A stretch of DNA of 64,000 nucleotides, taken from the NCBI GenBank assembly GCA_024644405.1, contig JAHELC010000008.1, positions 62,001 through 126,000 on the forward strand, given 5' to 3'. Below the pieces are notes generated by a model. It had not been told where the DNA came from. It did no database searches and was given only the letters and a program-made list of their open reading frames with translations. Of this stretch, positions 60,695 through 64,000 are shown piece by piece (the stretch's first letter is position 1; every line of letters starts with the position of its first letter). This DNA comes from Nitrospinaceae bacterium (GTDB taxonomy: Bacteria > Nitrospinota > Nitrospinia > Nitrospinales > Nitrospinaceae). A program made the translations under genes and the position numbers.

Positions 60695-60724
60695 TTGACA
60701 TTCCCAAAAGCCAGGAGCTATAAT
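60695..60724 (+). promoter_or_regulatory. Near-consensus sigma70 promoter of phoH
   Basis: TTGACA (60695-60700), 18-base spacer, TATAAT (60719-60724): both hexamers perfect. Transcription would start near 60731. Confidence 0.75.
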
Positions 60725-60757
60725 GAGGCATCTACCATTCCAGGGAAACTCAATCGT

Positions 60758-61750
60758 TTGAACGACACCACCTCCAAAGATTTATTGCTCGAAACCAGCC
60801 AGTATATTCCAGATATATTCGGTACCCAGGACCTCAACCTCAAACAGATCGAAAAGAAGTTCAACGTCCGCGTCACCACGCGGGAGAACCATATCAAAAT
60901 CAACGGCGCGCCGAAAGATGTCGAAGCGGTCGAACGCCTTCTCCTGCAATTGCAGGAAATGATGGCCCAGGGCAACCGGCTGCAAAACGGCGACATCAAA
61001 TTCGCCATCCGTCTGGTAGCCGACGACCCGGACGTGAATCTGCAAACCCTGTTCAGCGAACGGGTCACGGTTTCCCCGAAAAAAGGATTCATCACCCCCA
61101 AGGGTATCAATCAGCGTGAAATGATCCGGTCGATCCGGGACAACGACGTTGTGCTGGCCATCGGTCCCGCAGGCACCGGTAAAACCTATCTGGCTGTGGC
61201 CATGGCGGTGGAAGGATTTCTCAAGCATCATTACAAGCGCATCATCCTCACCCGCCCGGCGGTGGAAGCGGGAGAAAAACTGGGCTACCTGCCGGGAGAC
61301 ATTGCCGAGAAAATCCACCCTTACCTGATGCCGCTGTATGACGCGTTGTACGACATGATCGAATTCAACCAGGTCCAGCAGATGATCCAGGAAGGCTATA
61401 TCGAAATCGCCCCCCTCGCCTACATGCGGGGACGTACGCTCAACGACGCCTTCGTCATCCTCGACGAAGCCCAGAACTCAACGGTTCCGCAGATGAAGAT
61501 GTTCCTGACGCGGCTGGGGTTCCGCTCCAAGATGGTGGTCACCGGCGACATCACGCAGGTCGATCTGCCCACCGGCACCACATCGGGCCTCATTAATGCC
61601 AAACACATCCTGAAAAACATCGACGGCATCCGAACCATCAACTTCAAGGAAAAAGACGTGGTCCGGCACGAACTGGTTAAAAAAATCGTCCACGCCTACG
61701 AAGAAGAGCGCAACACCACCAATGGCAATTCCAGTGCCGATCCCGGCTGA
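60758..61750 (+). CDS. phoH: PhoH family ATPase
   Basis: A 330-residue cytoplasmic nucleotide-binding protein, KH-like segment (~40-100) then the PhoH P-loop domain (Walker A AIGPAGTGKTYLAVAMA; Walker B region DAFVILDEAQN). The frame runs open to 60695, but that TTG is the -35 box of the promoter and so cannot start translation of the promoter's own transcript; the TTG at 60758 (LNDTTSKDLL) is my choice, with a weak AGGG upstream. Likely RNA-related role from family knowledge. Confidence 0.9.
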   Translation: MNDTTSKDLLLETSQYIPDIFGTQDLNLKQIEKKFNVRVTTRENHIKINGAPKDVEAVERLLLQLQEMMAQGNRLQNGDIKFAIRLVADDPDVNLQTLFSERVTVSPKKGFITPKGINQREMIRSIRDNDVVLAIGPAGTGKTYLAVAMAVEGFLKHHYKRIILTRPAVEAGEKLGYLPGDIAEKIHPYLMPLYDALYDMIEFNQVQQMIQEGYIEIAPLAYMRGRTLNDAFVILDEAQNSTVPQMKMFLTRLGFRSKMVVTGDITQVDLPTGTTSGLINAKHILKNIDGIRTINFKEKDVVRHELVKKIVHAYEEERNTTNGNSSADPG

Positions 61751-61904
61751 CCCCCAATGTAGTCCAAGAAGAGACTTGATCCCTTTATTGCCGAATCTAT
61801 AAAATTTGGATATCGGATAGCCAAGTTACGTGAAAATATGCCATAACTACCCTGAAAATTGAGAGTTTCCTCCTAATTGCACTTTATTTTCTCATTATAA
61901 AACA

Positions 61905-63734
61905 ATGGCCTCCAAAAAGAATCAAAGAATCCTTCCCCTGAAAACTCCAATTCCTAATTTCACAGCTATTGAATCAGATATGCCAGTCGAATTCATGCAT
62001 GAGTTGGCCCTCAAGGAGGGAAATGGGAAAAAACCCATATACCAAATTCATAAATGGTGGGCAAGAAGACTTGGGACCTGTTTTCGGATGCTTTTGCTTG
62101 GAGCAACAACAAGTGCAAAAAGAAAAAGTGTTTTATTTAATGGGGGGTTTTATAAGGAAAATAAAATTACCAATTGGGTAGTTTTAGACCCCTTTTTGGG
62201 CGGAGGGACTTCCCTTGTTGAATCTACCAAGTTAGGTGCCAATTTTTCTGTACCAGGAAGTGGTAAAACAACCGTAATATTAACAGTTTATGAAAAATTA
62301 AGGTTGGAAGGAAAGGTTAATACCCTATTTATTGTTGGTCCGCCATCTTGTTTTGGCCCTTGGAGACATGAATTTTTAAAAACCTTCAATAGACCACCAG
62401 CATATACTATTCTTGCAGGAGGCGAACCTGAACAAAGAAAATCAGAATATTTTAATTTTTCAGAATCAAGGTCGGAGCTATATTTAACTTCATATCAAAC
62501 ATTGCTAAACGACCAAAATGAAGTTAATAAATTTATAAAACAAAAAGAGATTTCAGTTTTCCTAGTCATTGATGAAGCCCACTATATAAAGCAAATAGGT
62601 GGTAGTTGGGCAGGAGCAGTACTATCCCTTGCACAAAACGCAACTTATCGCTGCATTTTAACAGGAACGCCATTTCCTAAAAGTTATACTGATGTTTTTA
62701 ATATCTTTGATTTTTTATACCTAGACAAATCTCCCTTAGATTCAGAAATAAAGATAAAAATAGAAAATAATGAAAAAATAGAAAGAGGGAGCAATAACAT
62801 AAAAGAAATTTTGAGCAATAAAATAAATCCCTATTTTTATCGTGTTAGGAAATCTGATCTGGGATTAATACCTCCACTATTCCACCCTCCCCGCGTTCTA
62901 AAAATGAATAGGTATGAGCAAATTGTCTATGATGCAATAAATAAAAAAATAAAGGATTATTCAAGAAATGATTATTTAAAAAATATAGATGTAGTTAAGC
63001 GCCTATGTCGAGGAAGAATGATAAGGTTGAGACAAACTGCGTCATACGTAAAATTAATGGCAGAATCAATTGCAGAATATAATGAGGAATATTTTGAGGA
63101 CGGTTCAGAATTAAAGGAAATTATTTATAAATACGATGAATTGGAATCACCTGCTAAGCTTATTCATTTAGTTGATTTAGTAACTTTATTTCAAAAAAGA
63201 AAACAGAAAGTTGTAATTTGGGCGCATTTTATAGGGTCTCTAAAGTTAATTAAAAAGAGTTTAATGGATAAAGGTATTTATTCTGAACTAATATACGGAA
63301 ACACACCAACAGAAAGCACATCTTTAAAAGAAGAAGAAACGAGAGAATATATTAGAGACAAATTTGTATGTAAGGATAGTGGCTTAGATATTCTTGTGGC
63401 AAATCCTGCGGCTTGCGCAGAGTCAATTTCGTTACACGAAAATTGTTTTCACGCAATATATTATGATTTGTCCTATAACTGCGCACAATACATACAGTCG
63501 CTTGACCGAATACATCGTGTAGGAGGTTCAGAAAATAACCAAGCAAATTATTATTTTCTGCAATATGCAAATACCATCGATCAAGACATAATGGAAAATT
63601 TAAATAGAAAATCCGAAAGAATGTTCCAGGTTATTGATCAGGAATTTGCCATTAATTCCATGGATATGTTTGAAGAACAACTCGAAGATGAGGTAGCAGC
63701 CTATCAACGATTGTTTAAAACCCAAAATGATTAA
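61905..63734 (+). CDS. Chimera: DNA methyltransferase N-terminus joined to SNF2-like helicase
   Basis: A 609-residue frame. Residues ~29-113 resemble the start of DUF1156/COG1743-like adenine methylases (PIYQIHKWWARRLGTCFRMLL; DPFLGGGT at 95-102, the SAM motif), but the catalytic part is missing. From residue 113 the text becomes an SNF2-type helicase: Walker A VPGSGKT (116-122), DEAH (223-226), and C-terminal QSLDRIHRVG. The join reads LGAN-FSVPGSGKT, and GAN suits both parents. The DNA is AT-rich, about 23-35% G+C in helicase lines I counted. It may be a deletion fusion or a genuine two-domain defence gene. The helicase looks intact. Confidence 0.8.
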   Translation: MASKKNQRILPLKTPIPNFTAIESDMPVEFMHELALKEGNGKKPIYQIHKWWARRLGTCFRMLLLGATTSAKRKSVLFNGGFYKENKITNWVVLDPFLGGGTSLVESTKLGANFSVPGSGKTTVILTVYEKLRLEGKVNTLFIVGPPSCFGPWRHEFLKTFNRPPAYTILAGGEPEQRKSEYFNFSESRSELYLTSYQTLLNDQNEVNKFIKQKEISVFLVIDEAHYIKQIGGSWAGAVLSLAQNATYRCILTGTPFPKSYTDVFNIFDFLYLDKSPLDSEIKIKIENNEKIERGSNNIKEILSNKINPYFYRVRKSDLGLIPPLFHPPRVLKMNRYEQIVYDAINKKIKDYSRNDYLKNIDVVKRLCRGRMIRLRQTASYVKLMAESIAEYNEEYFEDGSELKEIIYKYDELESPAKLIHLVDLVTLFQKRKQKVVIWAHFIGSLKLIKKSLMDKGIYSELIYGNTPTESTSLKEEETREYIRDKFVCKDSGLDILVANPAACAESISLHENCFHAIYYDLSYNCAQYIQSLDRIHRVGGSENNQANYYFLQYANTIDQDIMENLNRKSERMFQVIDQEFAINSMDMFEEQLEDEVAAYQRLFKTQND

Positions 63735-64000
63735 ATTTAACAAAATAACCATTTACCAAATATTAAATTTGTCAGAAATATTGCTTAAAGGAAGTTATTT
63801 GAAAGAGGAATATATTGAGAAAAGATATTTAAAGAATTCTGGGAATTTTAGAGAAACATTAAATTTCATGGAAATATTAGATCTGATTATTCATGTTAAT
63901 GATAAATTATCTCTACAGTCAAAATTTAGAGCTGTGTTAGGAAAGAGTACTAAAATAATGGCTGGTAAAAATTTAAATTTATTTATTTTAAATAATTTAC
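63727..64000 (+). CDS. Unknown protein, 3' end outside window
   Basis: ATG at 63727 overlaps the helicase stop by eight bases and the frame stays open to the window edge (91 codons). The product is Lys/Ile/Asn/Leu-rich and helical (EILLKGSYLKEEYIEKRYL), with no recognised motif. AT-rich like the helicase part. Likely the next gene of the same island operon. Confidence 0.6.
   Translation, partial: MIKFNKITIYQILNLSEILLKGSYLKEEYIEKRYLKNSGNFRETLNFMEILDLIIHVNDKLSLQSKFRAVLGKSTKIMAGKNLNLFILNNL

Follow-up and report, generated by a model that had tools for sequence, protein, structure and literature searches.

How did one open reading frame in a marine, nitrite-oxidizing Nitrospinaceae bacterium (Nitrospina group) come to begin as a DNA methylase and to end as a helicase, and is it a working protein or what is left of a larger locus? 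The frame lies near the end of the window, the whole stretch of 64,000 nucleotides that was analyzed (C39:62001-126000), within a draft genome of 2.98 Mb and 40 contigs; contig C39 itself stops 1,457 bp past the window end. The original prediction described a single frame at 61905-63734 carrying HKWWARR, DPFLGGGT, VPGSGKT, DEAH and QSLDRIHRVG, and all of these are present, with HKWWARR (residues 49-55) and DPFLGGGT (residues 95-102) on the methylase side, and VPGSGKT (residues 116-122), DEAH (residues 223-226) and QSLDRIHRVG (residues 531-540) on the motor side. The chimera is real as assembled. The features of the region, in window numbering, are:

60695-61750, forward strand: phoH, chromosomal 5' flank of the island (PF02562, E 5e-94), which adjoins ybeY in island-free relatives
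61779-61904, forward strand: 5' leader that once belonged to the methylase gene, from local alignment to the methylase leader of Nitrospina sp. LS_NOB
61905-63734, forward strand: chimeric ORF of 609 aa with an ATG start, from the ORF call and the homology of both parts
61905-62242, forward strand: methylase-derived part, codons 1-112 (67% identity to residues 1-112 of L008:5466-7613; DNA match at island positions 180-492)
62049-62069, forward strand: HKWWARR, in the methylase-derived part
62187-62210, forward strand: SAM motif I, DPFLGGGT, in the methylase-derived part
62235-62242, forward strand: GGTGCCAA, the 8-bp microhomology at the join, from the overlap of two blastn matches
62235-63734, forward strand: SNF2 motor, GANFSVPGSGKT to the C-terminus (PF00176, E 3.5e-19; PF00271, E 4.3e-7)
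62250-62270, forward strand: Walker A, in the motor part
62571-62582, forward strand: DEAH, in the motor part
63495-63524, forward strand: QSLDRIHRVG, in the motor part
63727-64689 (L003:5690), forward strand: NOV_C (DUF3883) nuclease-like gene, 320 aa (PF13020, E 1.7e-14), of which the window holds 63727-64000, the gene end lying 689 bp beyond it
from 64727: ybeY, 3' flank, after the NOV_C gene

Searching the two halves separately confirmed by homology the proposed combination of a DUF1156-like methylase with an SNF2 motor. When 61 whole genomes were searched, matches were seen in four, and one of these, Nitrospina sp. LS_NOB (LFLA01000013; loci L008/L040), which belongs to the same order as the window's genome and to another family, contains both halves 4 kb apart. 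The genes there encode, in order, a methylase of 716 aa, a ParB-fold protein of 469 aa, an SNF2 motor of 637 aa and a NOV_C protein of 319 aa. Residues 1-112 of the chimera form an ungapped alignment with residues 1-112 of the LS_NOB methylase (67% identity, E 7e-50) and are, by homology, the start of a DUF1156-like DNA methylase of about 720 residues, although the Pfam DUF1156 match itself is weak (E 0.0039, under the family cut-off). The DUF1156-like N-terminal region and SAM motif I (DPFxGGGT) are present in the chimera; the DPPY catalytic motif, which sits at about residue 500 of the LS_NOB methylase, and the other parts of the methylase fold are absent from it, and a search of the genome for the C-terminal remainder found no such piece elsewhere. 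Moreover, the 5' leader aligns to that of the LS_NOB methylase gene with a score of 57, the best of 1000 shuffles reaching 50, and this conservation indicates that the chimera begins where the methylase began. A viral origin of the methylase piece was rejected, no relatives being seen among phages or viral contigs.

From residue 111, just before Walker A, to residue 609 the chimera is, as judged by homology, an SNF2-family motor. Residues 111-584 align to residues 145-607 of the LS_NOB motor (36% identity, E 3e-81), against up to 64% identity for other members of the family (L014). The stretch from Walker A to motif VI is kept, with 0 of 41 family-wide invariant positions violated and 2 of 95 positions invariant within the subfamily altered (F to Y and T to S). 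About 140 N-terminal residues have been lost, the Walker A region lying at about residue 132-165 in complete motors of the family, and among them is a glutamine that is invariant in 41 of 41 relatives and that we read as motif Q from its place before Walker A. Directly downstream, the first 8 bp of the NOV_C gene lie within the chimera; the product of this gene is 30% identical to the LS_NOB counterpart and 42% to that of L014, and it violates 0 of 6 family-wide invariant positions and 0 of 16 within the subfamily. Because neither the motor nor the nuclease shows decay, the deletion proposed below would be recent or the remainder would still be in use, and both fit.

The original prediction offered, as one of two possibilities, a new fusion effector. 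In such a protein the SNF2 motor would be tethered to the methylase N-terminus, which would serve it for recognition or docking, and the NOV_C nuclease would be its partner. The open frame, the retained invariant residues and the operon-like overlap of the two genes are consistent with such a protein. No fused methylase-motor homologue is present in 44 loci of the family, however, and none is seen among the matches listed of 336 plasmid records, while the invariant motif-Q glutamine is missing. In addition, the AlphaFold2 model shows the motor well folded from about residue 120 and residues 1-115 mostly at pLDDT <50, the latter being weak evidence because one methylase homologue alone covers these residues in the alignment. 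An in-frame join is likewise rejected as proof of selection, given that almost half (129) of the 281 8-mer pairs shared by the methylase and motor genes of LS_NOB are in matching frame anyway. The effector proposal is thus not supported, and we regard it as very improbable.

The other possibility, that a larger methylase-helicase locus left this frame as its relic, is upheld by the intact parents in the one LS_NOB locus, and the proposed position of the join, at GA(N) over microhomology, is supported by the alignments. In blastn comparisons of the island with the LS_NOB locus, the methylase match spans island positions 180-492 and the motor match 485-519; the overlap is the 8 bp GGTGCCAA, which is homologous to both parents, and chimera residues 111-112 (GA) fit both. 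The sequence GGAGCAAA is common to the methylase and motor genes of LS_NOB, at exactly the places that match the join. Independent homologues among the plasmid matches listed break at this place too: N-terminal matches end at residues 111-113 and the closest helicase matches begin at residues 107-112. Since the join falls on 8 bp homologous to both parents, one microhomology deletion of about 3.7 kb (3,740 bp on the LS_NOB scale) would explain the fusion. The 8-bp repeat alone is weak evidence because the two LS_NOB genes share 281 8-mer pairs, and what counts for us is the position, the order of the genes and the conservation of the leader, not the length of the repeat. The predicted drop in G+C is also real (39.7% before the join, 32.1% after), but we do not take it as a sign of recombination, since such a step is also seen in the intact LS_NOB methylase, between its start (38.7%) and the remainder (33.3%).

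The LS_NOB locus resembles the inferred ancestor in holding both parents of the chimera and the nuclease in the same order, with the leader conserved; it differs in that its four genes are intact, its motor belongs to another subfamily (36% identity) and its chromosomal place is other than phoH-ybeY. The best relatives of the two halves thus differ in subfamily, LS_NOB for the methylase at 67% and L014 for the motor at up to 64%, as might be expected if two defence loci had recombined, one supplying an LS_NOB-like methylase and the other a subfamily-A motor (the subfamily of the chimera's motor) with its nuclease, instead of a single locus suffering an internal deletion. Counting against the deletion, too, is the fact that no intact locus with exactly this pair of methylase and motor was found, and the known members of subfamily A carry small methylases of about 300 aa. 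Recombination of this type, however, would require two loci and an illegitimate exchange, and the gene order and leader match the LS_NOB locus. Methylase partners vary between motors, so that an LS_NOB-like methylase beside a subfamily-A motor is not unexpected, and we judge the two-locus origin improbable. The chimera is thus very probably a deletion relic of a four-gene, restriction-modification-like locus, a working new fusion being unlikely, and this relic is most likely recent and disarmed in one step. Another DUF1156-like methylase, of 736 aa, occurs in a genome of the same order (G020, L009:4332-7554) paired with a protein of 369 aa that is weakly like EcoRII-C/PD-(D/E)XK nucleases; the two are probably a separate restriction-modification pair.

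The surroundings of the chimera had been described as an island edge. An island is indeed present, but "edge" understates the matter, since the island measures about 3 kb in all; it fills the phoH-ybeY gap from about 61751 to 64726 and contains the chimera and the NOV_C gene only. phoH adjoins ybeY and the island is absent in six relatives (G001, G003, G006, G007, G008 and G009), and in a further genome (G002) the phoH stop leads straight to a ybeY-like start. The same assembly also contains an empty site on contig C16, where a second phoH is followed directly by ybeY and then a HIT gene; the phoH-ybeY-HIT region is accordingly represented by two alleles in one assembly, one with the island and one without. 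C16:1-1188 starts inside the second phoH, and C39 ends 164 bp into the HIT-gene stretch that C16 shares. DNA identity between the two contigs is 96.8% for phoH, 88.8% for ybeY and 99.4% for the HIT gene over 164 bp, a variation that suggests mixed strains or recombination, and the contig probably breaks here because strains are mixed.

For this reason some weight stays with an assembly artefact, by which the strain would possess the whole locus and an assembler or a chimeric read would have joined its ends. This is a place where the assembly is both fragmented and mixed, with the ends of C39 and C16 in the phoH-HIT region, and a 3.7-kb piece could have dropped out at binning. Assemblers usually join sequences on overlaps far longer than 8 bp, however. 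The missing methylase and ParB parts are not found in the genome, where searches revealed neither a second intact copy of the locus nor, in the island or beyond it, a ParB gene of the family, even though a control search detected the 30%-identical ParB protein of LS_NOB. Moreover, the two genes meet in frame at homologous positions, and the island passes cleanly into ybeY. An artefact is therefore unlikely in our estimation, and deletion is again the explanation that we prefer.

We scanned GTDB with a two-sequence motor alignment and obtained 80 loci, of which 44 (L014-L057) are close relatives. In most of the 44 the motor gene is flanked directly by a ParB-like gene on its upstream side and by a NOV_C gene on its downstream side. 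The ParB-like proteins carry a conserved GQ...DG...GNRR and were hardly detected by Pfam alone, and their alignment found no match when searched against PDB sequences; the fold is supported by AlphaFold2 and Foldseek, which matched Noc (7nfu, E 1.8e-4) and also KorB. Of 29 family loci, 18 have a methylase within -4.5/+4 kb, and none of the 31 other SNF2 loci compared has one; this contrast is partly circular because the methylase exemplars came from the family itself. These methylases differ in class (N6_N4, D12 and DUF1156-like) and stand on either side of the motor. Record titles place the family in many phyla, among them Desulfobacterota, Bacteroidota, Chloroflexi, Verrucomicrobia, Elusimicrobia and Bacillota, and in archaea (Thaumarchaeota, Prometheoarchaeum). 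On this basis we tentatively suggest that the parent of the chimera may be an unnamed, widespread ATP-dependent restriction-modification system of many bacterial phyla and archaea, made up of a ParB-fold (Noc/KorB-like) protein, an SNF2 motor, a NOV_C nuclease and exchangeable protecting methylases, in which the ParB-fold protein, possibly a nucleotide-switched DNA clamp, may recognize or mark DNA for the motor and nuclease.

Some variants were also seen in these searches. In L018, L019, L020 and L023 a D12-type methylase directly follows the motor and no NOV_C gene was seen, and one ParB-like protein (L023:2109-3992) has an extra N-terminal HNH-nuclease-like region with cysteine pairs and histidines. 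On Enterococcus plasmid NZ_CP141641.1 (L196), a hypothetical protein takes the place of ParB upstream of a related motor gene, and no NOV_C gene is annotated after the motor.

Comparison with known systems gave no established name for this arrangement. Zorya is suggested by ZorD, the top PADLOC match of the chimera's motor (E 3.7e-27), but the island is without ZorA or ZorB and its two genes are both accounted for. Similarly, the LS_NOB methylase matches HmaB (PADLOC, E 2.6e-24), but the motor matches HmaA weakly (3.3e-7), and neither the island nor the set of four LS_NOB genes includes a third Hma gene. Membership in Zorya, DISARM, Dpd or Hma was rejected, the similarity being to single proteins with partner genes absent. 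CglI and NgoAVII, which we liken by their workings, have separate genes for a methylase, a nuclease and an NTP-hydrolysing helicase-like motor according to two reports (PMC4267653, PMC5737866); the present family differs from them in its additional ParB-fold protein, in the SNF2 class of its motor and in having NOV_C as its nuclease. PMC3710099 reports that DUF3883 is a new REase domain, found in operons of R-M type as a fusion with an SNF2 helicase, and this supports a nuclease reading of the NOV_C gene. We found no description of the four-gene ParB/SNF2/NOV_C/methylase arrangement in the literature searched, in which subscription journals were thinly covered, and this is weak evidence of novelty.

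We propose that a locus of methylase, ParB-fold protein, SNF2 motor and NOV_C nuclease, ATP-dependent and restriction-modification-like, once stood between phoH and ybeY. In intact relatives the methylase would mark host DNA, the ParB-fold protein would recognize or clamp DNA, the motor would move along it and the NOV_C nuclease would cut. A single deletion, about 3.7 kb long and bounded by 8-bp repeats at methylase codons 111-113 and just before the motor's Walker A, would have taken the catalytic part of the methylase, the whole ParB gene and the motor N-terminus, leaving one open frame by chance. The relic strain would have lost modification, and most likely restriction too, because the presumed recognition protein and motif Q of the motor are both gone; the simultaneous loss of the two activities would have avoided self-cutting.

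The chimera is therefore most likely the product of an ordinary microhomology deletion, yet it is instructive. The loss, in one event, of the protecting methylase, of the protein presumed to recognize DNA and of a key motor residue is a plausible safe exit from restriction-modification. Beyond this strain, a methylase often lies near the conserved ParB-SNF2-NOV_C module, which is present at about 44 loci and in which a clamp of the ParB type would be coupled to a restriction motor.
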